From: Anaerolineaceae bacterium
Lineage (GTDB): Bacteria > Chloroflexota > Anaerolineae > Anaerolineales > Anaerolineaceae
Length of the DNA stretch: 64,000 bases
Assembly (NCBI GenBank): GCA_002702705.1
Contig: PABH01000042.1
Span: 1 to 64,000, forward strand
Direction: 5' to 3'
In this document: positions 37,219 through 62,969 of the stretch, in pieces
Layout: every line of letters starts with the position of its first letter
How positions within the stretch are numbered: position 1 is the stretch's first letter
Notes under the pieces: generated by a model
Told to the model about the DNA's origin: nothing
Database searches by the model: none
Seen by the model: the letters and a program-made list of their open reading frames with translations, nothing else
Position numbers and translations under genes: made by a program

Positions 37219-37260
37219 CTTTCCCAAATTGATCCTTGCTAATTATTGTATAATCAACCT

Positions 37261-38850
37261 ATGGCCTACAAAGTATTCCTGGTTGAAGATGAAATTGTCA
37301 CGCGCGAAGGTATTCGGGACAACGTTGATTGGAAAGCAGCTGGCTTTGAATTTTGCGGGGAAGCGTCCAATGGGGAATTAGCATTACCATTGCTTGACGA
37401 ATCTAAACCAGACGTATTAATCACGGACATTAAGATGCCCCATATGGATGGGCTTCAACTCAGTAAAATTGTGCGCAAACATATGCCGTGGATAAAAGTA
37501 ATAATACTTAGTGGGCATGATGAGTTCAATTTTGCTCAATCCGCGATCAAATTAGGAGTCACCGAATATTTATTAAAGCCGGTTAGTTCCCATGATTTGC
37601 ATATAACCCTTACCAAACTGGCGTTAAGCTTGGATCAAGAAAAACAAGAACGTGAGCAATTAAAATCATTAAAGTCCAAATTGGAAGACAATTTTGCATT
37701 AACCCAAGAAAAATTCCTGATCCGATTAGTAACAGGGGGGATTTCATCCACTGAAGCCGTAGAACTTAGTCTTCAATTAGGTTTGGATATCATAAGTAAA
37801 TTTTATTTGGTAATGTTGATTAAGATTGAACCCCCTGATAAAACTTATCCATATGATTTCCAGGTTTATAAACGAGCAGAACAACTTATCTTTGATATGG
37901 TAAAAGATGATCCCGACCTGATTTTGGCCAAAAAAGAATTTGAAGATCTTGTACTTTTCGTTAAAGGGGATAGTTTGGAACAAATCACCCAAGAAAGTTT
38001 GTTCCGTGCAGATTTATTCAAGAACATTATTCAAACCCAAACCGGCTATTCGGCAAATATATCAATTGGCAGCCCACAAGAACGATTGGGTGCTATTCAC
38101 CATTCATTTGCTGAAGCATTGATTCTCCAGAAAACAACTCCTGTTCAAGAAAGTGATCAATTCACTTCTTCAACAATTGAAATTCCTCCTCTTGACCATA
38201 AAGCGATTGAAAATTACCTCAGATACGGGGCCATTTCCAACTTTGACGATTTCTTTTCAAAAACTCTGGAAACGATCGGAAGAATTGGCTTACAAATACC
38301 AATCATCAAACAATATTTATTTGTTGATCTTATTTTGACCCTGACCCAATTTATTAGTGATGTTGATAATTCAATAATCCCCCCCTTCTCTGATATTAAC
38401 TCAATACAAAAATCTTTGTCTGATATAACAACAATTGAACAAATTCAAGAAAGAATCAAAAATTTCTTTAATGAAGCGATTAATGTACGAAAATTAAATA
38501 ATAACAATGATTATGAGTTGTTAAATAAAATAGAAGAATTTATTCATCAAAATTTTCAAAATGCAGATTTAAAAATGAGTGATGTTTCGAAAATTTTTAA
38601 TCTCAGCCCCAGCTATTTCAGCGCTTTTTTTAAAGAGGAAGTCGGCGTCACGTTTCGTGATTATATCTGTGATTTACGGATTGAGCATGCTAAAAACCTT
38701 CTTGTTTCAACTCATTTAAAATCCTCAGTAATTGCTTACAAATCCGGATACAACGATCCTCATTATTTTAGCTTTATTTTTAAGAAAAAAACTGGAAAAA
38801 CACCGAAAGAATTCCGAAACTCTTCAGAGGATGGCGCACATGCAAAATAA
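37261..38850 (+). CDS. AraC-type response regulator (YesN family)
   Basis: Protein of 529 residues. The receiver domain (1-125) has phospho-acceptor D56 in LITDIKMP and K in LLKPV. A long middle region of about 290 residues resembles the YesN linker. The C-terminal AraC HTH (about 420-520) includes MSDVSKIFNLSPSYFSAFFK and IAYKSGYNDPHYFSFIFKK. A consensus -10 TATAAT (37249-37254) lies six bases before the ATG, with no SD, so the operon mRNA is probably leaderless. It overlaps the kinase gene by 11 bp and probably controls the transport operon downstream. Confidence 0.9.
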   Translation: MAYKVFLVEDEIVTREGIRDNVDWKAAGFEFCGEASNGELALPLLDESKPDVLITDIKMPHMDGLQLSKIVRKHMPWIKVIILSGHDEFNFAQSAIKLGVTEYLLKPVSSHDLHITLTKLALSLDQEKQEREQLKSLKSKLEDNFALTQEKFLIRLVTGGISSTEAVELSLQLGLDIISKFYLVMLIKIEPPDKTYPYDFQVYKRAEQLIFDMVKDDPDLILAKKEFEDLVLFVKGDSLEQITQESLFRADLFKNIIQTQTGYSANISIGSPQERLGAIHHSFAEALILQKTTPVQESDQFTSSTIEIPPLDHKAIENYLRYGAISNFDDFFSKTLETIGRIGLQIPIIKQYLFVDLILTLTQFISDVDNSIIPPFSDINSIQKSLSDITTIEQIQERIKNFFNEAINVRKLNNNNDYELLNKIEEFIHQNFQNADLKMSDVSKIFNLSPSYFSAFFKEEVGVTFRDYICDLRIEHAKNLLVSTHLKSSVIAYKSGYNDPHYFSFIFKKKTGKTPKEFRNSSEDGAHAK

Positions 38851-40369
38851 TATTATGGACATGGGATATATTCCTGATTCTGCCTCTTCTAAATATTTAA
38901 ATAAATTCATTAATTTGTTTAGCCGCATAAATATTTCACTCCATTCCAAGATACTCCTTTCTTTCATCATCATTATTGTTCTAATGGTTTTGATTAATAC
39001 CATGATGATTGTGGAATTTCTGCACATTAATAAACAGTATGACGCTATCATTACGAATATAACCATCGCTAACGATTTAAACGCCTATATTAAACCAGCC
39101 ATTGATACTGAAATGTGGAATATTGTGGCAGGTAAAGTTGAATTTAACAACGGAAATCAATTTGAAATCCTTCAACAAGCGGAAAGCCAAATTGAATTAT
39201 TGGTCTCTAATACAGATTCTGATGAGTCGAAGATCAAACTAGATGTAATTCGGAGAACATTAAACACGCTTGCTCTATACGTTGATAAGTTAGGAGCGCA
39301 AATAACAGCTGGCAGTCGTGTTGCCGAAAACGAACTTGTATTAGAAGATATCCGGGGAGTTTCAGAAGTTGTAAAAGAAACTGTTCAGGATTATATGCTG
39401 TTTGAAGTCCAGCAAGCAGAATTAAAATATCTTGAAAATCAATCCAGGCTTAACCGTTGGATTATCGTTTATTTTGTTTTACTTCCAGTCATTGTTGCGT
39501 TCTCTTTTTCGGCGGCTTGGATTATTTCCGCAAGTATTTATTACCCAATCAAAAAACTACAGGATCTTACGACAACAATCACCAAAAACGACTTGGAAGC
39601 TCTTGTAAACCGTTCTAACGTAGATGAAATAACCGAACTACGTTTAAATTTCAACATTATTACCAGTAAAATCCGAGAATTATTAGACGCGAAGGTAAAA
39701 GAACAAGAAAATTTAAAAAAGGCTGAACTTAAAGCATTACAAGCCCAAATAAACCCTCATTTTTTATATAATACACTGGATACAATTGTATGGATGGCAG
39801 AAGCTAATAAATCAGCCCAGGTTATTAAAGTAGTTCGGGCATTATCAAGCTTTTTCCGCATTGCTCTTAGCCGTGGAAAAGATTGGATATCCATTCAACA
39901 GGAAATAGAACATGTTCGTAGTTATTTATATATCCAAAAAATTCGTTACCGTGATATTTTGGAATATGAAATTGATGTGGATGAATGCATTCTCTCCAGC
40001 ACAATTTTAAAATTAACCTTACAACCGTTGGCTGAGAATGCACTTTATCACGGGATTAAAAACAAACAAAAAGGTGGTCTTATCAGCATACGCGCAAAAA
40101 AAGCAGAGGACAACTCCATTATTCTGCAGGTTGAAGATACCGGCGTTGGATGTACTCCCTTCAAATTAGCTAAGATACGTGACAGCTTAAAAAATCCATC
40201 AGATGAGGTTTTTCATAATGAAGAAGGGTTTGGGCTTGCCAATGTAAATAAGCGAATCAAGCTTTATTATGGTGATCAGTATGGTTTAAACATAGAAAGT
40301 GAATATCTTGAAGGAACGATAGTCACTGTGAGAATCCCGTTACAAGATGATTATAATACACCCCATTAG
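38840..40369 (+). CDS. YesM/LytS-type sensor histidine kinase
   Basis: Protein of 509 residues. Two membrane helices (about 38-59 and 207-230) bracket an exported, mostly helical sensor domain of about 145 residues. A HAMP domain follows, then the His_kinase domain with H307 in INPHFLYNTLDTI and an ATPase domain (LTLQPLAENALYHGI, DTGVGC, GFGLANVNKRI). The ATG at 38840 is set nine bases after GAGG; the ATG three codons earlier touches the SD. The sensor domain has no evident sugar pocket, so it may read the adjacent binding lipoprotein. Confidence 0.88.
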   Translation: MQNNIMDMGYIPDSASSKYLNKFINLFSRINISLHSKILLSFIIIIVLMVLINTMMIVEFLHINKQYDAIITNITIANDLNAYIKPAIDTEMWNIVAGKVEFNNGNQFEILQQAESQIELLVSNTDSDESKIKLDVIRRTLNTLALYVDKLGAQITAGSRVAENELVLEDIRGVSEVVKETVQDYMLFEVQQAELKYLENQSRLNRWIIVYFVLLPVIVAFSFSAAWIISASIYYPIKKLQDLTTTITKNDLEALVNRSNVDEITELRLNFNIITSKIRELLDAKVKEQENLKKAELKALQAQINPHFLYNTLDTIVWMAEANKSAQVIKVVRALSSFFRIALSRGKDWISIQQEIEHVRSYLYIQKIRYRDILEYEIDVDECILSSTILKLTLQPLAENALYHGIKNKQKGGLISIRAKKAEDNSIILQVEDTGVGCTPFKLAKIRDSLKNPSDEVFHNEEGFGLANVNKRIKLYYGDQYGLNIESEYLEGTIVTVRIPLQDDYNTPH

Positions 40370-40378
40370 GATAAAAAC

Positions 40379-41377
40379 ATGTCCAAAAAATCACACCCAT
40401 TAATAATTTTGGTTTTATTTATCATCATATTTGAAATTGCTGGTTGCCAGAATATTTCTAATCAAAAAACTCAATCCCAGACTATAGTCCCTAATCAAAA
40501 GACTTACCAAACCATGGTAGTTGGCTTCTCACAACTTGGTGCAGAAAGTGAATGGCGAACTGGCAATTCGGAATCCATTAAAGAAGCGGCCAGTGAACTT
40601 GGTGTTGAGTTATTGTTTTCTGATGCACAACAAAAACAGGATAACCAAATTAAGGCGATCCGTACTTTCATTGCACAACAAGTTGATGTAATTGGTGTCT
40701 CCCCTATTGTTGAAACTGGTTGGGAATCTGTATTTCAAGAAGCAAAAGAAGCTGGAATACCAATTATTTTGGTTGACCGTCGTGCAAACGTTCCTGAAAA
40801 CCTTTATGCGGTTCATCTTGGTTCAGATTTTGTTGAGGAAGGACGTAACGCAGCACGCGTAATGATTGATTTGTTAGATGATAAAGGAAATATTGTTGAG
40901 TTAGCTGGTACGGAAGGATCTGCTCCGGCAAATGATCGTTATAACGGTTTCCGGGAAATACTCGAGAATCATCCAGACATGAAAATTATCGCTTCTGAAT
41001 CAGCTGATTTTACCCGTGCTAAGGGGAAAGAGGTGATGGGAGATCTTCTTATCAAATATGGGGACCAAATTGATGCGGTTTATGCCCATAACGATGATAG
41101 TGCTATTGGTGCGATTAAAGCAATTGAGGAATACGGATTACGTCCAGGGGAAGATATTATCATTGTTTCTATTGATGCCATTCGAGATGCCTTTCATGCA
41201 ATGATCGCTGGAAAACTTAATGCAACCATTGAATGCAATCCATTATTAGGCCCTAAGTTTTTTGAAGTAGCCCTCCAAGTTGTGAATGGAGAAGAACTAC
41301 CAAAGTGGATTCCTTCAAAAGAATCAATATTTTTCCCGGATAATGCCGCAGAAATTTTACCTTCTAGAAAATATTAA
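40379..41377 (+). CDS. YtfQ-like sugar-binding lipoprotein, probable sensing partner
   Basis: Periplasmic-binding-protein-like lipoprotein of 332 residues with lipobox EIAGC (C23). Typical family sequence follows: VGFSQLGAESEWRTGNSESI, DAQQKQDNQIKAIR, VYAHNDDSAIGAI, ending LPSRKY. It is close to the YtfQ galactofuranose-binding family and a paralogue of the protein at 41775. It lies nine bases after the kinase gene and is cut off from the transport genes by a terminator, so I infer it presents the sugar to the kinase, as XylFII does for LytS in Clostridium. Confidence 0.85.
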   Translation: MSKKSHPLIILVLFIIIFEIAGCQNISNQKTQSQTIVPNQKTYQTMVVGFSQLGAESEWRTGNSESIKEAASELGVELLFSDAQQKQDNQIKAIRTFIAQQVDVIGVSPIVETGWESVFQEAKEAGIPIILVDRRANVPENLYAVHLGSDFVEEGRNAARVMIDLLDDKGNIVELAGTEGSAPANDRYNGFREILENHPDMKIIASESADFTRAKGKEVMGDLLIKYGDQIDAVYAHNDDSAIGAIKAIEEYGLRPGEDIIIVSIDAIRDAFHAMIAGKLNATIECNPLLGPKFFEVALQVVNGEELPKWIPSKESIFFPDNAAEILPSRKY

Positions 41378-41441
41378 CTAAAATCGTAAAATAATTAACC
41401 AAATTAAAATTGTAAATATTTTTATATAAAAATTCCACAAA

Positions 41442-41492
41442 AAAATTAACTCATTCCTCAATGAAATTAATTGAGAAATGAGTTAATTTTTG
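41442..41492 (+). terminator. Terminator after the sensing operon
   Basis: A long hairpin with outer arms AAAATTAACTCATT/AATGAGTTAATTTT (41442-41455, 41477-41490), inner arms CTCAAT/ATTGAG, and a T-run. It separates the regulator-kinase-binding protein unit from the transport operon. Confidence 0.82.
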
Positions 41493-41774
41493 TTAACCTA
41501 ATGTTAATCAAATGTGTCCTCCGGCATAATTTTGGTTAACAAGTGCTAACCTAAACACAGGGCAGTAATAAAAAGGAGGTTATCAAAAAGAATAAAAGAA
41601 TTTTAATAAAAAGAAGTGTTTGCCAGGTTATGTGTGCCCAGACAAACACTCCAGACGGGTGTAACTCAAATAAAGTTTATATGAATTACACACAAAAAAA
41701 TTATACTTCAAAAAATCTCCCAAAGAGATAAATCCCAAAATCTATAATAAAAAATAATATTTAAGGAGAGAAGA
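41491..41774 (+). promoter_or_regulatory. Regulatory leader of the sugar transport operon
   Basis: Two similar elements, GTTAACCTAATGTTAAT (from 41492) and GTTAACAAGTGCTAACC (from 41535), each hold half-sites 10-11 bp apart and lie 43 bp from one another, the spacing expected for an AraC-type regulator. Downstream are a hairpin AGTGTTTG/CAAACACT (41615-41622, 41643-41650), an inverted repeat GTGTAACTC/GAATTACAC (41659-41691), and an orphan Shine-Dalgarno AAGGAGG at 41573-41579. The promoter hexamers are not clear. Confidence 0.5.
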
Positions 41775-42758
41775 ATGTTCCGTCTAAAAACATTTGCATT
41801 TTTAGCTGTAATTGCTGTTTTAATTTTGTCAGCTTGTTCAACTGCCGCACCTCAGGAAACTGCAGAAGAAACCTCTTGTGCCCCCAACTGCGAATTTACA
41901 GATATGGTTTTTTGCTACCCGCAACTCGGTGCAGAAAGTGATTGGCGAACGGCAAACACAGCATCTTTTAAAGAAACTGCTGGTGATTTAGGAGTTCGTT
42001 TGATTTTCTCGGATGCTCAACAAAAACAAGAAAATCAAATTTCAGCCATGCGATCTTGTATCCAGCAGGGTGTGGACGTAATTGGTTTGCCCCCGGTTGT
42101 TGAAGATGGATGGGAACCAGTATTAACGGAAGCCAAAGAAGCAGGTATTCCAGTTATCATCGTTGATCGTTCCGTAACAGCTGATTCAAGCTTGTATGCA
42201 TCTCATATCGGTTCCGATATGTTCCTTGAAGGTCAACGAGCAGCAGATGAAATGAACAAACTTTTACCTGATGGGGGAAAAATTGTTGAATTGAGTGGTA
42301 CAACCGGTTCTGGTGCCGCTGTAGGTCGTGCCGAAGGTTTCCGAGCCAATCTGAATGACAATATTGAAATTGTCGATTCACAAACTGGCAATTTCACCAC
42401 CGCCGAAGGAAAACCTGTTATGGAAGCCTTCTTGAAGAAATATGAAGGTGAAATTGATGGTGCTTTCATCCATAATGACAACATGGCAATTGGTGCTGTA
42501 GAAGCTATGAAATCTGCTGGTTTAGAGCCTGGAGACATTGTCATTGTTTCAGTCGATGGCACACGGGGCGGATTCCAATTAATGATCGATGGATGGGTAC
42601 AAGCAGATGTGGAATGTAATCCCTTGCTTGGCCCTCAAGTTTACGACATGGCATTGGCTTTGATGAATGGACAAGATATTGATCGAGAAGTTCTCACCGA
42701 TGAAACTGTTTACTTCCCGAATGAAGCCGCAGACTTATTACCAAGTCGGAAATATTAA
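41775..42758 (+). CDS. ytfQ: YtfQ-like sugar ABC transporter substrate-binding lipoprotein
   Basis: Lipoprotein of 327 residues with lipobox LILSAC (C21). YtfQ-type features are PQLGAESDWRTANTASFKET, FSDAQQKQENQISAMR, VEDGWEPVLTEAKEAGIPVI, IHNDNMAIGAVEAM and the LLPSRKY end. E. coli YtfQ binds galactofuranose; the same sugar is likely but not proven. It starts with SD AAGGAGAG. Two permeases and the ATPase follow after a hairpin that may raise the amount of binding protein over membrane subunits. Confidence 0.9.
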   Translation: MFRLKTFAFLAVIAVLILSACSTAAPQETAEETSCAPNCEFTDMVFCYPQLGAESDWRTANTASFKETAGDLGVRLIFSDAQQKQENQISAMRSCIQQGVDVIGLPPVVEDGWEPVLTEAKEAGIPVIIVDRSVTADSSLYASHIGSDMFLEGQRAADEMNKLLPDGGKIVELSGTTGSGAAVGRAEGFRANLNDNIEIVDSQTGNFTTAEGKPVMEAFLKKYEGEIDGAFIHNDNMAIGAVEAMKSAGLEPGDIVIVSVDGTRGGFQLMIDGWVQADVECNPLLGPQVYDMALALMNGQDIDREVLTDETVYFPNEAADLLPSRKY

Positions 42759-42895: not shown

Positions 42896-43975
42896 ATGAA
42901 AAATAACACACCTTTGGTTAAACGTTTTCGTCAAAGCCAATTGTTTTGGCCTCTTATTGCATTAAGTTTACTGCTGATTGTGGACGCTATTTTTGCACCA
43001 AATTTTTTTAAGATTGGAATTGTTCAAGGTCATCTATACGGTAATTTGATTGATGTAGTTAACAATGCGGCTCCATTAATGCTTGTCGCAATAGGCATGA
43101 CGCTGGTCATTGCTACTGCGGGGGTAGATCTTTCTGTAGGAGCGGTGATTGCCATTTCTGCGGCAATGGGTACTGTTTTAATTAATCCTGCTTTGGGAAA
43201 TGAATTAATCACAAATGATATTTTGGCAGCAAACGCTACAAATACTCCTTTGTGGTTAGTTGTAGTGGCCAATCTTGCAGCTGGAACTCTATGTGGTGTG
43301 TGGAACGGATTCCTTGTGTCACGAGGAAAAATTCAACCCATGGTTGCAACATTAATCCTCATGGTTGCAGGACGTGGTATTGCCCAACTCATAACAAACG
43401 GTCAAATCATGACTGTTTATTACAAACCATATTGGTGGTTTGGTAACGGGTTTATCTTGGGTCTGCCGGTTTCTATGTATATTGTAGCAATTGTATTTGT
43501 TCTAGCCTGGTTACTGATCCGGAAAACTTCAATTGGTTTATTTATTGAGATCGTAGGTACAAATTCCAGAGCAGCTTATTATTCGGGAATCAGCGAAAAA
43601 AATGTTAAGTTAATTGCATACACCTTCTGTGGTTTCTGTAGTGCCGTAGCTGGCCTCATCCTAAGTTCTTATATACATGGATGTGATGCAAATAACATCG
43701 GATTATTATATGAACTTGATGCTATTCTTGCAGTTGTAATCGGTGGAACATTAATGTCCGGTGGACGATTTTCCTTACTTGCCAGTGTTATTGGTGCACT
43801 CATCATTTGGACTTTTACAATCACGATGTATACCTTTGGTGTCCCGGCGAACGCCTTATTAGCTGGTAGAGCAGTATTAGTCCTTATCGTAATTCTGCTG
43901 TATTCCGATTATTCACGACGTCTTATCAACCGCTTAATCGAACGTAAAGGACAGACTCATGGTGCAACGAATTAA
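42896..43975 (+). CDS. ytfT: Sugar ABC transporter permease (YtfT-like)
   Basis: Membrane protein of 359 residues with about nine helices, ribose/galactose-type BPD_transp_2 family. Characteristic stretches are IATAGVDLSVGAVIAISAAMG, the coupling segment around EIVGTNSRAAYYSGI, and VVIGGTLMSGGRFSLLAS. It overlaps the next permease gene by 17 bp and would form a heterodimer with it. The SD is weak. Confidence 0.9.
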   Translation: MKNNTPLVKRFRQSQLFWPLIALSLLLIVDAIFAPNFFKIGIVQGHLYGNLIDVVNNAAPLMLVAIGMTLVIATAGVDLSVGAVIAISAAMGTVLINPALGNELITNDILAANATNTPLWLVVVANLAAGTLCGVWNGFLVSRGKIQPMVATLILMVAGRGIAQLITNGQIMTVYYKPYWWFGNGFILGLPVSMYIVAIVFVLAWLLIRKTSIGLFIEIVGTNSRAAYYSGISEKNVKLIAYTFCGFCSAVAGLILSSYIHGCDANNIGLLYELDAILAVVIGGTLMSGGRFSLLASVIGALIIWTFTITMYTFGVPANALLAGRAVLVLIVILLYSDYSRRLINRLIERKGQTHGATN

Positions 43976-44939
43976 AACCTTTATCAGCGGTAACGCCCCT
44001 CTACTAACAACGATCGTGATTTTTATCATTGTTTATATCATTGGTGGCCAGCTCTACCCAAGTATGCAAAAACCCCAAGTTTTCTTTAATTTGTTTATTA
44101 ATAACGCAAGTCTTCTAATCATATCAATTGGGTTAACCACTGTCATTCTGACAAAAGGCATTGATCTTTCAGTGGCAGGTGTAATTGCCATGATCTCAGC
44201 TGCTTCTGCAGCATTATTAAAGGCAGGTTGGAGTGCCGGTGTTGTTATTCCACTGATGTTATTAATTGGAATTGCATTTGGCTTCATCATGGGCTGCATC
44301 ATCCATTATTTAAAAGTCGAACCCTTTATCGTCACTTTGATGGGACTCTTCTTTGCTCGAGGTATGGCTTATATCATCACACTCTCCTCTCTTACGATCA
44401 CGAATGACACATACCGATACTTAGCACTCACAAAACTTCATATTCCATTCTTTAAAAGCGCTTACCTATATATTCCTTCACTAATAGGACCAATACTTTT
44501 GTTAGTTACATTTTATTTATTAAAATACACACGGTTTGGCAGAACCGTTTATGCCATTGGAAATAATGAGCAATCGGCCTGCTTAATGGGACTCCCAGTA
44601 GCACGTACAAAAATCATTGTTTATTCTTACGGCGGTTTATGCTCAGCCATTGGGGGTATCGTTTTCAGTATTTCATTACTTTCGGGTTATGGTGGCTATG
44701 CTCCAGGGATGGAGTTAGACGCAATCGCTTCCGTCGTAATTGGTGGAACCTTACTTTCGGGTGGTGTTGGCAATGTCATCGGAACTTTATTTGGTGTACT
44801 CATTAATGGCACCATTGTTTCTATATTGCAATTCAACGGGACACTAAGTTCTTGGTGGACAAGGATTGGGGTTGGCTTACTAACTTTGATCTTTATTGGA
44901 ATTCAAAGTCTATTCTATATGAGAAAAAAGCATTCATAA
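43959..44939 (+). CDS. yjfF: Sugar ABC transporter permease (YjfF-like)
   Basis: Second permease, 326 residues, same family: ILTKGIDLSVAGVIAMISAA, VYAIGNNEQSACLMGLPVA and SVVIGGTLLSGGVGNVIG. SD AAAGGA. Paired with the preceding permease and followed after 28 bp by the ATPase. Confidence 0.9.
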   Translation: MVQRIKTFISGNAPLLTTIVIFIIVYIIGGQLYPSMQKPQVFFNLFINNASLLIISIGLTTVILTKGIDLSVAGVIAMISAASAALLKAGWSAGVVIPLMLLIGIAFGFIMGCIIHYLKVEPFIVTLMGLFFARGMAYIITLSSLTITNDTYRYLALTKLHIPFFKSAYLYIPSLIGPILLLVTFYLLKYTRFGRTVYAIGNNEQSACLMGLPVARTKIIVYSYGGLCSAIGGIVFSISLLSGYGGYAPGMELDAIASVVIGGTLLSGGVGNVIGTLFGVLINGTIVSILQFNGTLSSWWTRIGVGLLTLIFIGIQSLFYMRKKHS

Positions 44940-44967: not shown

Positions 44968-46485
44968 ATGGTTGAAAACAACCAAGAAATCATAAAAATG
45001 GAAAAAATTTACAAATCCTTTCCTGGTGTTCAGGCATTAGAAAATGTGGATTTTTGTTTAAAACAAGGTGAAATTCATGCATTGGTTGGTGAAAACGGTG
45101 CGGGAAAATCAACCTTGATAAAAGTAATGACTGGGGTTGAACGGCATGATAGTGGTCACATTTTTTTTGAAGGGGAAGAAATTACCATACGCTCACCGCA
45201 GCATGCTCAAATTGTTGGAATTAGTACCGTCTATCAAGAAGTTAACTTATGTGATTACCTTACTGTAGCAGAAAATCTATTGCTTGGTCGTGAACCACAC
45301 AATCATTTTGGGATTGATTGGAAAGCAATGAATGAACGAGCTAAACACATCCTTGCTGATTTAGGTATCCATATTGATGTAACGAGACCTTTGGGATATT
45401 TTTCAACAGCCATTCAACAGATAACCGCTATTGCACGAGCATTGGAAATCACATCAGCGAAAGTATTAATTCTTGATGAACCAACCTCAAGTTTAGACAT
45501 CCATGAAACGGAACAGATATTCCGTGTAATGAAAAAACTTAAAAACGATGGGGTAGGGATCATTTTTATTACTCATTTTATTGACCAAATTTATGAAATC
45601 TCTGATCAAATAACAATTTTAAGAAACGGAAAACTGGTTGGCTCTTATGAAACGAATAACCTTCCAAGATTATCCCTTATCTCCAAAATGATTGGTCGAA
45701 ACCTCTCTGATTATGACGACATGAAAGCTACAAAATTGGAAACAGCAAAAAATATCGATAAAGAACCCTTTTTTGTAGCAAATTCTCTAGGGTTACAAGA
45801 CGCAATCACCCCATTTGATTTAACATTACATGCAGGAGAAGTGGTTGGCTTTGCTGGTTTACTTGGTTCAGGAAGGACAGAAATAGCCCGTTTATTATTT
45901 GGAATTGATCAGCCGGATCAAGGTACTGTAACCTTTGATCATACTAAAATTAAAGAATTTTCACCTATAGCATCTATTGAACGAGGGGTCGGTTTATGTC
46001 CGGAGGATCGTAAAAGGGAAGGGATTGCCGGAGACCTCACAATACGTGAAAACATCATTCTTGCCATACAGGCAAGAATGGGATGGTTTAAATATATAAG
46101 TTTACAAAAACAATACGAGCTGGCTAATCATTATATAAAATTATTAAACATCTCTACACCCTCCCCTGATCAACCCGTCAAAAACTTGAGCGGTGGCAAC
46201 CAACAAAAGGTGATTCTTGCACGATGGTTAGCAACAAATCCCCGTCTTTTGATCCTGGATGAACCCACGCGCGGAATTGATGTCGGGGCAAAAGCAGAAA
46301 TTCAAAAATTAGTGCTTTTGTTAGCAGAAGAAGGGAAATCTATCATTTTTATTTCATCCGAATTAGAAGAGGTTCTGCGTACCAGCCATCGTATTGTCGT
46401 TTTACGTGATAAAAAGAAAATCATTGAATTTACAGAAGAAGTAAGTGAACAAAAAATTATGCAATCAATTGCTGGCGGAGACTGA
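44968..46485 (+). CDS. ytfR: Sugar ABC transporter ATP-binding protein (YtfR/RbsA-like)
   Basis: Tandem ATPase of 505 residues. Domain 1 has Walker A GENGAGKSTLIK, and Walker B ILDEPTSSLD. The signature region of domain 1 reads FSTAIQQITAIARAL, a divergent LSGGQ. Domain 2 has GLLGSGRTE, the LSGGNQQKVILARWL signature, and LILDEPTRGIDVGA. This degenerate second Walker A is normal for the RbsA family. It completes the ytfQ-type importer. A weak inverted repeat follows the stop. Confidence 0.92.
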   Translation: MVENNQEIIKMEKIYKSFPGVQALENVDFCLKQGEIHALVGENGAGKSTLIKVMTGVERHDSGHIFFEGEEITIRSPQHAQIVGISTVYQEVNLCDYLTVAENLLLGREPHNHFGIDWKAMNERAKHILADLGIHIDVTRPLGYFSTAIQQITAIARALEITSAKVLILDEPTSSLDIHETEQIFRVMKKLKNDGVGIIFITHFIDQIYEISDQITILRNGKLVGSYETNNLPRLSLISKMIGRNLSDYDDMKATKLETAKNIDKEPFFVANSLGLQDAITPFDLTLHAGEVVGFAGLLGSGRTEIARLLFGIDQPDQGTVTFDHTKIKEFSPIASIERGVGLCPEDRKREGIAGDLTIRENIILAIQARMGWFKYISLQKQYELANHYIKLLNISTPSPDQPVKNLSGGNQQKVILARWLATNPRLLILDEPTRGIDVGAKAEIQKLVLLLAEEGKSIIFISSELEEVLRTSHRIVVLRDKKKIIEFTEEVSEQKIMQSIAGGD

Positions 46486-46630: not shown

Positions 46631-46652
46631 TGGGTAACAATAATTAAAACAC

Positions 46653-46880
46653 AATGACCAGGACGAGTAGCTGTTAAGTCCCTGCCAGAGAAAAAAGGTC
46701 ACCGGCTGAAAACCTTTTTGAGGAAGAGAACAGTGAAAACCCCCTGCGAGTGGAAACCTGAAATTGAGTAAGGCAACCGGCTGGCTCCGTTAAAAGCCCC
46801 AACGAGATACCCAATGTGGGTAATCTGGGTGGAACCGTGAGATTAACTCTCGCCCCAGTGGTGAGAGTTTTTTATTTTTT
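46653..46880 (+). promoter_or_regulatory. Threonine T-box riboswitch leader with terminator
   Basis: Standard T-box: AGTA motif at 46666-46669, the Stem I loop around GGTCACCGGCTG, specifier ACC (Thr) at 46739-46741 followed by the conserved GAGTGG, and the T-box core AATCTGGGTGGAACCGTG (46822-46839). UGGA at 46830-46833 would pair with a tRNA carrying discriminator U. The terminator stem ACTCTCGCC/GGTGAGAGT (46846-46868) is followed by T's. Uncharged tRNA-Thr is expected to turn on thrS. Confidence 0.92.
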
Positions 46881-46915: not shown

Positions 46916-48706
46916 ATGGCGAAACAAACAAATCAAGCTTATGAAAATTCAAATCTATTCCGCATCCGGCACTCAACTGCACATGTGATGGCTGAAGCTG
47001 TTTTAGATCGTTTTCCTGATGCAAAAATTGCAATCGGCCCCGCGATTGATGATGGTTTTTATTATGATTTTGATCTACCCCGCGCCCTAACTCCGGAAGA
47101 TTTATCTGAAATCGAAAAACGGATGAAACACATCTTAAAGGGAAATCATAAATTCGAAAAAGAAGTTATTAGTGCAGAAGAAGCCAAGAAATTTTTTGCC
47201 GACCAACCCTTTAAATTAGAACTGATTGAAGGGCTGGAATCCGGTGGGCTGGATGAACACGGTAATCCATTGGAAGAAAAACCGGAAATCTCACTGTACA
47301 AAAGTGATACCTTTGTTGATCTTTGTCGTGGACCGCATGTTGAAAGCACAAAAGAAATCAATCCAAAAGCGATTAAGTTGCTTTCCGTAGCTGGCGCTTA
47401 TTGGCGAGGTGATGAAAAACGTCCCATGTTACAGCGTATCTACGGAACAGCCTTCGAAAATCCGGAAGACTTAAAAGAGTATCTCTGGAAGTTAGAAGAG
47501 GCGAAAAAACGTGATCACCGTAAAGTTGGCAAAGACATGGAATTATTCTCTGTCAGTCAGGAAGTTGGTCCCGGGTTAATTTTATGGCACCCAAACGGCG
47601 GGTTAATCCGTCACCTGACCGAAGAATATTGCAAAAAAGAACATCTTGCCAATGGTTACGACATTGTCTATTCACCGCATATTGGACGGGCTAATCTATG
47701 GGAGACCTCAGGCCACCTTGGTTTTTACAATGAAAATATGTTCTCGCCGATGAAGATCGAAGAGGATGAATATTATGCAAAACCCATGAACTGCCCCTTC
47801 CATATCATGATTTACAACAGCAAACTTCATTCCTATCGCGATTTTCCAATCCGTCTGGCCGAATGGGGTACCGTTTACCGTTACGAGCGCTCTGGCGTGC
47901 TGCATGGTTTGCTGCGGGTACGTGGATTCACACAAGATGATGCCCACCTGATTTGCCGTGAAGATCAAATGCCGGAAGAGATTGATGAAGTACTCAATTT
48001 CTGTCTGCACATCTTACGCCATTTTGGAATGAATGAATTCCATGCTTATCTTTCCACCCGTGATCCCGAAAAATCGGTTGGAGAAGAAAAAGATTGGCTG
48101 GCCGCACAGGACGCATTAAAAGCCGCCTTGGAGCGGGCAAACCTTGCTTATGATATTGATGAAGGTGGTGCTGCTTTTTATGGCCCCAAGATTGACTTAA
48201 AGATGATCGATGCCCTCGGGCGAGAATGGCAGCTCAGTACCATACAATTTGACTTTAACCTCCCTGAACGATTTGATATGACCTATATTGGTGAAGATGG
48301 ACAGCCTCACCGTCCAATGATGATTCACCGGGCTTTATTAGGTTCCATCGAACGTTTTATGGGTGTTCTGATTGAGCATTATGGTGGTGCATTCCCCGTC
48401 TGGTTGATGCCGGTACAAGTGAAGCTTATCCCGATTGCGGACCGGCATGTGGATTATTCACATGAAGTTGCAAAACAGTTAAAGAAAGCCGGCCTGCGGG
48501 TTGAAGTGGATGATGGAAACGATCGTATGAATGCCAAAATCCGCAAAGCCCAATTGCAAAAAGTACCCTATATGCTCATCATTGGAGATCAGGAACTGGA
48601 AGCTGGGGAAGTAGCCTTACGTTTACGCAGTGGAGAGAACCCCGGTCCAATGTCTGTGGAAACTTTTGTAGAACGCGCATTAAAAGACATCGAAGAATTG
48701 GTGTAA
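46916..48706 (+). CDS. thrS: Threonyl-tRNA synthetase lacking the TGS domain
   Basis: Enzyme of 596 residues that charges tRNA-Thr. The usual N-terminal TGS domain (about 60 residues) is absent; the chain starts almost at the editing domain, whose metal motif RHSTAHVMAEA is at residues 18-28, with CRGPHV later. The catalytic core has class II motifs (motif 2 around TVYRYERSGVLHGLLRVRGF) and zinc ligands in MNCPFH and MMIHRALLGS. The anticodon-binding domain starts near VKLIPIADRH. The ATG has SD CGGAGG at the right distance, so the shorter form is the true product. Controlled by the threonine T-box. Confidence 0.95.
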   Translation: MAKQTNQAYENSNLFRIRHSTAHVMAEAVLDRFPDAKIAIGPAIDDGFYYDFDLPRALTPEDLSEIEKRMKHILKGNHKFEKEVISAEEAKKFFADQPFKLELIEGLESGGLDEHGNPLEEKPEISLYKSDTFVDLCRGPHVESTKEINPKAIKLLSVAGAYWRGDEKRPMLQRIYGTAFENPEDLKEYLWKLEEAKKRDHRKVGKDMELFSVSQEVGPGLILWHPNGGLIRHLTEEYCKKEHLANGYDIVYSPHIGRANLWETSGHLGFYNENMFSPMKIEEDEYYAKPMNCPFHIMIYNSKLHSYRDFPIRLAEWGTVYRYERSGVLHGLLRVRGFTQDDAHLICREDQMPEEIDEVLNFCLHILRHFGMNEFHAYLSTRDPEKSVGEEKDWLAAQDALKAALERANLAYDIDEGGAAFYGPKIDLKMIDALGREWQLSTIQFDFNLPERFDMTYIGEDGQPHRPMMIHRALLGSIERFMGVLIEHYGGAFPVWLMPVQVKLIPIADRHVDYSHEVAKQLKKAGLRVEVDDGNDRMNAKIRKAQLQKVPYMLIIGDQELEAGEVALRLRSGENPGPMSVETFVERALKDIEELV

Positions 48707-61409: not shown

Positions 61410-62969
61410 ATGACTCCCGTACTCGAACTCAAAGGAATTACGAAGCAGTTCCCTGGTGTTCTTGCAAACGATCATATTGATCTGACACTCAATAAAGGAG
61501 AGATTTTAGTCCTCTTGGGTGAAAATGGCGCAGGGAAAACAACACTCATGAATATCTTATATGGGTTGTATCAACCCACAGAGGGGGAAATTTGGGTAGA
61601 AGGAAAAAAGATTGAAGTCCATTCCCCCACAGACGCCATTAACGCCGGGATTGGTATGGTACATCAGCACTTCATGTTGATTCCCGTCTTCACCGTCACT
61701 GAAAACGTCATGTTGGGCGATGAATCGACCAAAGCAGGCGGTTTTTTGGATCCGGAAACGGCGGCACAAAAAATCAGACACATCTCTAATCAATATAATT
61801 TGGCCGTTGAACCAAGTGCCTATGTCAAAGACCTGCCGGTGGGCGTGCAGCAGCGGGTGGAAATCATCAAACTGCTTTACCGTGAAGCAGATATTCTCAT
61901 CTTTGATGAACCTACTGCCGTTTTAACCCCGCAAGAAGCAGATGAATTATTTGTTATCATGCGGGAGTTGGTCAATCAGGGCAAATCAATCATCTTTATT
62001 ACCCACAAGCTCCGTGAGATTCTCGATGTGTCAGACCGTATTATGGTTGTTCGCCGCGGTAAGATTGTCGGAGAAACGACCCCACAAGAAGCCGATCAAA
62101 ATAAACTGGCAGCGATGATGGTAGGACGCGAAGTTCAATTAGATCTAGAAAAGAGTCCTGCTCAATTGGGGGAAACCGTTTTAAGTGTCACGGATCTAAC
62201 AGTTACTGATGATCAAAAACAAATCACGGTTGATAATGTTTCACTTACCGTACAAAGTGGTGAAATTCTTGGAATCGCGGGTGTACAGGGCAATGGACAA
62301 ACGGAACTGGTAGAAGCCATTACTGGTTTACGTAACCCCATTGATGGGAAAATCGAGATTCTTGGCAATAATATTACCCACGCCACACCCCGTCAGGTTA
62401 CGGAATTAGGTGTTGCGCACGTTCCGGAAGACCGGCAAAGAGACGGATTGGTTTTGTCATTCCCAATTTATGAAAACCTGGTCTTAAACACTTATTACCA
62501 GGAACCATATGCAAAAGGCGTCAACTTGTATTATGACCGTATCTATAAAAATGCGGATCAGTTAATTGAAGATTTTGATGTCCGTACACCCGGTGCGAGT
62601 ACCCCAGTAGGATCTCTTTCCGGTGGTAATCAACAAAAAGTGATTATTGCTCGTGAATTATCTCGCCCAATAAAATTTTTAGTTGCTTCTCAGCCAACCC
62701 GCGGTCTGGATGTGGGTTCTATTGAATATATCCATAACCGCATTGTTAAAAAACGCGATGATGGCTGTGCCGTTATGTTGGTTTCCCCTGAGCTTGATGA
62801 AATTATGAAATTATCTGATCGAATTGCGGTCATGTATCGGGGAAAAATCATCGCCGTGCTTGACGCAAACAAAGTCACCAAAGAAGAAGTTGGTCTTTGG
62901 ATGGCTGGTATCAACCCGAATGATAGCAAAAATAACAATCGGGAATCAGCCAATAACCAGAAAATTTAA
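61410..62969 (+). CDS. ABC transporter ATP-binding protein, nucleoside (BMP-linked) type
   Basis: Tandem ATPase of 519 residues. Domain 1: Walker A GENGAGKTTLM, signature-like LPVGVQQRVEIIKLL, Walker B ILIFDEPTAVLTPQEA. Domain 2: VQGNGQTELVEA, LSGGNQQKVIIARELS, and FLVASQPTRGLDVGS where the usual DEPTRG has become SQPTRG, as is typical of the NupA/YufO branch. It energises the nucleoside importer with the permease that follows after 12 bases. Confidence 0.92.
   Translation: MTPVLELKGITKQFPGVLANDHIDLTLNKGEILVLLGENGAGKTTLMNILYGLYQPTEGEIWVEGKKIEVHSPTDAINAGIGMVHQHFMLIPVFTVTENVMLGDESTKAGGFLDPETAAQKIRHISNQYNLAVEPSAYVKDLPVGVQQRVEIIKLLYREADILIFDEPTAVLTPQEADELFVIMRELVNQGKSIIFITHKLREILDVSDRIMVVRRGKIVGETTPQEADQNKLAAMMVGREVQLDLEKSPAQLGETVLSVTDLTVTDDQKQITVDNVSLTVQSGEILGIAGVQGNGQTELVEAITGLRNPIDGKIEILGNNITHATPRQVTELGVAHVPEDRQRDGLVLSFPIYENLVLNTYYQEPYAKGVNLYYDRIYKNADQLIEDFDVRTPGASTPVGSLSGGNQQKVIIARELSRPIKFLVASQPTRGLDVGSIEYIHNRIVKKRDDGCAVMLVSPELDEIMKLSDRIAVMYRGKIIAVLDANKVTKEEVGLWMAGINPNDSKNNNRESANNQKI

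Follow-up and report, generated by a model that had tools for sequence, protein, structure and literature searches.

We analysed a 64,000-nt stretch of the genome of an Anaerolineaceae bacterium (contig PABH01000042.1, positions 1 to 64,000; hereafter the window), in which the genes of a YesN-type response regulator (RR), a YesM/LytS-type histidine kinase (HK) and a substrate-binding protein (SBP), here called SBP1, precede a Gaf-type ATP-binding cassette (ABC) importer with a second binding protein, SBP2. It is probable that RR, HK and SBP1 constitute a three-component sugar sensor, in which SBP1 serves mainly or only the kinase and SBP2 serves the importer, with L-arabinofuranose as the most likely ligand. 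Gene association, phylogeny and the modelled fold of the kinase ectodomain give good support to the sensor role of SBP1, which had been proposed by analogy with XylFII-LytS in an earlier reading of the sequence (the original prediction).

Locus organization

All genes of the locus lie on the plus strand. The open reading frame (ORF) of the RR (37261..38850, ATG at 37261; Pfam Response_reg and HTH_18) has its receiver Asp56 in DVLITDIKMP and an AraC-type helix-turn-helix. Its stop is overlapped by the ATG of the HK gene at 38840 (38840..40369; Pfam His_kinase PF06580 and HATPase_c), and this kinase is the sole PF06580 match in the 5.9 Mb genome. We take His307 (INPHFLYN) to be the phospho-acceptor, Asn400 the N-box and Asp433 the G1 residue, roles that, like that of Asp56 in the RR, are presumed from general knowledge of these motifs. 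SBP1 (40379..41377) and SBP2 (41775..42758) both match Pfam Peripla_BP_4, and in both a lipobox can be read by eye (IAGC with Cys23 and LSAC with Cys21, respectively). The importer continues with permease 1 (YtfT-like, 42896..43975) and permease 2 (YjfF-like, 43959..44939), both of Pfam BPD_transp_2, and the ABC ATPase (YtfR-like, 44968..46485; ABC_tran). The models YtfT, YjfF and YtfR are the best NCBIfam matches of these three proteins, below the equivalog cut-offs. ORF calls and Pfam agree with the gene coordinates and families originally assigned.

The two lipoproteins had been described as paralogous and YtfQ-like, and both parts of this description hold. YtfQ is the top NCBIfam model for SBP1 and SBP2 (324.6 and 267.8 bits, with the equivalog cut-off of 510 not reached), and 156 of their 326 aligned residues are identical, which makes them old paralogues. 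By sequence both are homologous to GafA, and we do not name either of them a YtfQ equivalog. Judged by gene order and spacing, SBP1 belongs to a predicted operon with the kinase and the regulator, separate from the importer SBP.

Kinase and binding protein in other genomes

A class-level search of 298 genomes for kinase matches at 1e-30 gave 20 positive genomes, including that of the window. In 13 of the others the match takes in the sensor part of the kinase (in G109 it begins at residue 163, since the contig starts there), and in the remaining 6 it covers the cytoplasmic part only. RR, HK and SBP are adjacent in the genomes of the class wherever the contig continues. A locus with two SBPs is shown or begun in nine of the 13 (G278, G211, G231, G137, G021, G103, G207, G109 and G254), while in three (G084, G256 and G246) one SBP leads directly into the importer, in the order regulator, kinase, SBP, ATPase and two permeases (RR-HK-SBP-ATP-P1-P2); in G147 the contig stops after the SBP.

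The best 80 loci were then taken from a wider scan of named genomes, and they belong to Anaerolineae, Caldilineaceae, Bacillota (mostly Lachnospiraceae) and Spirochaetota. The 94 loci examined comprise 68 with a full-length kinase homologue, 19 with the cytoplasmic half only, 5 that are cut and 2 without a kinase ORF of the size used; one locus is counted twice (L034 and L077). A same-strand SBP gene adjoins the HK or RR in 64 of the 68 full-length loci, the 4 misses being contig edges. When the SBP is required to be of GafA type (at least 150 bits), the figures are 54 of 68 for full-length kinases and 0 of 19 for cytoplasm-only kinases, 18 of which stand beside a weaker, non-GafA SBP. About ten Bacillota loci (for example L085, L090, L100, L115 and L123) have a GafA-like SBP on the kinase side, at about 200-250 bits, and an importer SBP that is just about 30% identical; many Bacillota loci also have the one-SBP layout given above. 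Units of SBP-HK-RR also occur without a nearby importer ATPase of this family, in L081 and L114 with at least 4.7 kb of contig on each side (the SBP of L114 being weaker, at 128 bits), and likewise in L096 and L094 with shorter flanks.

Phylogeny of sensor and importer

In a quick tree of 103 SBPs, for which only SH-aLRT support was calculated, SBPs labelled as kinase-side, transport-side or both were clustered, yet these labels were mixed over Bacillota and Spirochaetota, a pattern that points to several divisions of labour. A more careful tree of 36 rows covered the Chloroflexota side together with E. coli YtfQ. In this tree one clade (96/97) holds 14 kinase-operon SBPs, apart from the transport SBPs, and a second SBP is visible in the locus for 13 of them (the contig of L075 ends first). 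SBPs of the SBP2 type form one clade (100/100), which is also present in G263 and G219, two genomes where we found no kinase of this type. The SBPs from one-SBP loci fall outside both clades. Between the clades, 44 columns are fixed differently (15 kinase-side versus 11 SBP2-type rows).

The kinase of the window groups with those of G278, G254 and L080 (100/99), and G254 and L080 are also within the window's SBP1 clade (99/92), whereas the window's importer clade (100/100) contains neither their permease nor their transport SBP. One RR-HK-SBP1 lineage therefore stands beside different importers with their own SBPs, and this arrangement is the best evidence here for regarding SBP1 as a probable partner of the kinase. 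The locus of G254 lies on two contigs, which join within the kinase gene; that of L080 is on a single contig. A dedicated SBP1 next to another importer is seen a third time in L074, whose kinase has no clear place in the tree.

Kinase ectodomain

The extracellular sensor region of the HK (about residues 50-205; 38987..39454, plus strand) lies within a model of residues 30-245 that was built on 69 homologues, and it is predicted to be a bundle of four long helices (mean pLDDT 92.2). No Pfam family was found in more than 2 of the 69 ectodomains, with 4HB_MCP_1 in 1. When the model was searched with Foldseek, no match fell below E 0.001, and the LytSN chains of XylFII-LytS (5xsj_L and 5xsd_L) ranked 2 and 4 with E 0.012 and 0.025 and TM-scores to the target of 0.84 and 0.85. 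VIA-align, run on the top 1000 Foldseek chains, placed the same two chains at ranks 1 and 2 (Z 16.9 and 16.8; root-mean-square deviation 2.2 and 1.9 over 121 and 120 residues). Helical bundles can score about 13-14 in this comparison without kinship, so the LytSN fold match lends support but is no proof. With the full-length kinase, the best 50 of 822 Foldseek matches were mostly kinase catalytic parts, GanS being the first.

Sugar pocket and ligand

In order to compare the pockets of the two lipoproteins, as the original prediction had proposed, we aligned 11 positions to residues that we take to contact ribose in E. coli RbsB. Both lipoproteins have an intact furanose pocket, and just one position differs (Ser108 in SBP1, Pro106 in SBP2). 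At nine of the 11 positions, SBP1, SBP2, E. coli YtfQ and the Shewanella and Mycobacterium GafAs have the same residue; both lipoproteins keep the Ser, Trp, Arg, Asp, Arg, Arg, Phe, Asn and Asp of the conserved furanose pocket. In the available part of PMC10191376, Phe40 of the Shewanella GafA (GafASw) is tied to galactose exclusion, and the Mycobacterium GafA binds both sugars. Both window lipoproteins have Asn at the place of Phe40, as in the Mycobacterium GafA (the position was placed through its distance to Asp), and the pocket therefore permits both furanoses. Read with that source, the pocket residues do not separate D-galactofuranose from L-arabinofuranose.

The galactofuranose-type character given to the system in the original prediction, a label taken from the name of the E. 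coli relative, is thus not established, and the two genomic links that we found are to L-arabinose genes. In G263, a genome of the same family, the run SBP2-P1-P2-ATP is preceded by a LacI-type gene and followed, in one run, by an FGGY kinase, araD and araA. In G278, araA, araB and araD lie upstream of RR-HK-SBP1. These two related loci make L-arabinofuranose more likely than galactofuranose as the ligand. In the window's own genome, araB-araD-araA are found on another contig next to a different sugar transporter. There (L166:2517-11366, contig C30), an SBP of Peripla_BP_4, an ATPase and a permease form one run with a dehydrogenase, araB, araD and araA, and this arabinose operon could belong to the same regulon as the window locus. 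The arabinofuranosidase domain PF06964 is without a match in the window's genome and was found in 8 of 16 chosen genomes.

Comparison with known systems

The window unit resembles XylFII-LytS, AraPSR and CuaDSR, and is a separate branch built on the GafA family. XylFII-LytS has YesN as its partner regulator. The L-arabinose system of Geobacillus stearothermophilus, AraPSR/AraEGH, is similar to the window in its sensor lipoprotein, kinase, regulator and separate transport SBP, and differs in that chain 6gq0, which we take to be AraP, gives only 68 bits to SBP1, far under GafA. In XylFII-LytS-YesN of Clostridium beijerinckii, which responds to D-xylose, a sensor SBP likewise works with a LytS-type kinase and the transport SBP is separate, according to the part of PMC10384115 available, and LytSN is the structure nearest to our ectodomain model by VIA-align. 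The two systems differ in that SBP1 scores 281 bits to GafA chains versus 48.7 to XylFII (5xsj_X), and the ectodomains are about 10% identical, with no match by sequence. The nearest relatives of SBP1 by sequence are GafA/YtfQ chains, not XylFII as would be expected in an XylFII-LytS orthologue.

CuaDSR/CuaABC of Ruminiclostridium cellulolyticum shares with the window the two operons, with a sensor SBP beside the kinase and a second SBP with the importer; its sugar is different (cellobiose), and the CuaS ectodomain has been modelled with 7 helices, in contrast to the four-helix bundle of the window HK (PMC10384115, same part). This source also reports that the kinase-operon SBP CuaD binds CuaS while the importer SBP CuaA does not, and that the C. 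beijerinckii and G. stearothermophilus systems have two SBPs of distinct roles. In Parageobacillus thermoglucosidasius, SBP genes adjoin YesM-YesN, as at the window locus, and lie near arabinose genes; these SBPs are described as ChvE-like and arabinose-binding-like, not as GafA; a contact between SBP and kinase is raised there, with no test in the part of PMC13068155 available. Compared with the furanose importer GafABCD / YtfQRT-YjfF, SBP2 and the window importer are homologous throughout and retain the furanose pocket, but the permeases stand ahead of the ATPase, a kinase system adjoins, and no NCBIfam equivalog cut-off is reached. In the open-access literature searched, we found no description of a YesM/YesN system with a GafA-type SBP.

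Mechanism and alternative explanations

In the mechanism that we propose, SBP1, lipid-tethered outside the membrane, would close on a furanose sugar, most likely L-arabinofuranose, and dock on the kinase dimer at its four-helix-bundle ectodomain. Phosphorylation of the YesN-type regulator by the kinase would follow, and this regulator would switch on SBP2 and the Gaf-type ABC importer. SBP1 would thereby be devoted mainly or exclusively to the kinase, and SBP2 to the importer. The contact, the ligand, the direction of signalling and the target promoter are the parts of this mechanism that we infer.

Several results weigh against this interpretation. A single SBP stands between kinase and importer in G084, G256 and G246, so one SBP fold is probably able to serve the two. 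A GafA-type SBP faces the kinase from the opposite strand in 5 of the 19 cytoplasm-only loci (L105, L108, L113, L139 and L151), and in the first four it belongs to a divergent importer; what sets the full-length kinases apart is therefore the operon layout and not simply the presence of such a neighbour. The kinase of L027, from the two-SBP group, is beside the one kinase-side SBP outside the dedicated clade, on a contig that ends there; grouping all 15 kinase-side SBPs together, L027 included, was not clearly rejected (p-AU 0.054). In a mirror-tree comparison of 8 loci the ectodomain tracked SBP1 with r 0.49 and SBP2 with r 0.66, so that SBP1 was not favoured. When the 15 SBP1 positions with the strongest kinase-side enrichment were put to an independent-pairs test, there were 5 supported pairs, with which none was able to reach 0.05, and no single residue among them could be singled out as a sensor-class marker independent of shared ancestry. 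As for the ectodomain, Foldseek rank 1 is another kinase sensor, 4k0d (Adeh_2942, an Anaeromyxobacter-type locus name); the VIA-align Z values of a designed bundle (16.5) and of the chemoreceptor MCP2201 (15.5) are near those of LytSN, with TorS at 12.8; and LytSN was absent among 35 sequence-profile matches up to E 10. Finally, araA was found in 7 of the 16 chosen genomes and a galK match in all 16, in 15 of them above the cut-off, so catabolism alone does not settle the ligand.

The one-SBP loci, together with the many Bacillota loci of the same layout and the two systems named in the available part of PMC10384115 in which a single SBP both senses and transports, would fit a double role of SBP1, feeding the importer and signalling to the kinase, as the single SBP presumably does in such loci. 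We consider this unlikely for the window, since the importer SBP of two-SBP loci is of a separate clade and the sensor lineage occurs beside different importer lineages. SBP1 might also be a mere second transport SBP placed in the kinase operon, with the kinase sensing alone or sensing transport. Its intact pocket, which resembles that of SBP2, and the mirror-tree result are compatible with such a role, but an SBP is tied to this kinase type in three phyla, SBP-HK-RR units exist without such an importer, and one sensor lineage has different importers next to it, all of which makes this explanation very unlikely. As to the ligand, D-galactofuranose in place of L-arabinofuranose seems rather unlikely to us. 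Both the Asn shared with the dual-binding Mycobacterium GafA (PMC10191376) and the frequency of galK speak in its favour; the ara genes linked to the Gaf loci of G263 and G278 and the araBDA genes elsewhere in the window's genome speak against it, as do the many links of gaf genes to arabinose, and no direct one to galactose catabolism, reported in the available part of PMC10191376.

A dedicated sensor SBP of this kind would bring the GafA furanose-binding family, and a kinase ectodomain that no Pfam family covers, into the range of SBP-assisted kinase sensing, in three phyla. Since loci with one SBP, with two SBPs and with another importer coexist, the system lends itself well to studying how a binding protein is split between sensing and transport. 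Since GafA-type pockets hold furanoses, we also suggest, quite tentatively, that the ring form of the sugar is what the sensor detects, with SBP1 reporting L-arabinofuranose freshly cut from plant polymers, before its conversion to the pyranose. If so, the kinase would be switched by newly released sugar and not by the sugar in general, a property common to Chloroflexota, Bacillota and Spirochaetota.

Intergenic elements and other features

The spacer between SBP1 and SBP2 contains a strong A+T-rich hairpin (41443..41489, plus strand), a 25-nt inverted repeat with a fold of -22.1 kcal/mol (z -7.4, matched by 0 of 200 shuffles), flanked by an A-tract and a T-tract. The original prediction had the kinase operon cut off by a terminator here: the hairpin itself is real, while its function as the end of the kinase-operon transcript is plausible. 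The terminator scan called it on the minus strand only, and it may stop transcription both ways. The long SBP2 leader (41605-41700) has two more inverted repeats, with a fold z of -2.7 that 2 of 200 shuffles equalled. A -35 block common to the SBP2 promoters of relatives was scored in the window spacer; 10 of 300 shuffles reached its best site and 4 sites elsewhere in the window outscored it, and we do not claim a promoter. At the other end of the kinase operon, a TATAAT read by eye six bases before the RR ATG (37249-37261) directly follows a tRNA-Val gene and a hairpin. It is not in the promoter-scan list; because of its distance of only six bases to the ATG, the kinase-operon mRNA may be leaderless.

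In nine relatives the spacer between SBP1 and the importer SBP has a stem-loop, near GCRTTTC-NNCCCGGGN-GAAAYGC, right after a promoter-like block (about CATTGA-17-TATRNT). It lies at L023:12341-12356, L024:6751-6766, L025:6520-6535 and L030:8820-8835, and in the same spacer of L028, L029, L033, L036 and L080. Compensating changes occur in the 7-bp stem, in which 93.7% of 63 cells are paired and 3 pairs have changed on both sides, with a covariation score equalled by 1 of 500 shuffles, and the loop of about 9 nt contains the self-complementary CCCGGG or CCGGG. A tenth spacer, that of L074, has CCCGGG without this stem and was excluded from the set, and no stem-loop was seen in the spacers of the window, L032, L067, L068 and L027. 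When a model built on the nine stem-loops was run on 16 genomes, with 150 candidates scored per genome, these same spacers came first (E up to 0.002) and elsewhere there were weak sites only (0.004-0.03); the window gave nothing under E 0.9. The element could be part of a 5' leader, perhaps with a loop-loop contact, or an operator. A second match to the CCCGGG motif lies at L025:9326-9341, in the gap that separates the two permease genes in the same G231 operon.

Elsewhere in the window there are two T-box leaders, at 46645-46860 and 164-468 (97.1 and 115.8 bits, above the gathering score), the former directly preceding an ORF at 46916 that reads like a threonyl-tRNA synthetase. Near the window end, the stretch 61419-62852 also resembles an ABC ATPase and has about 33% identity with the importer ATPase.

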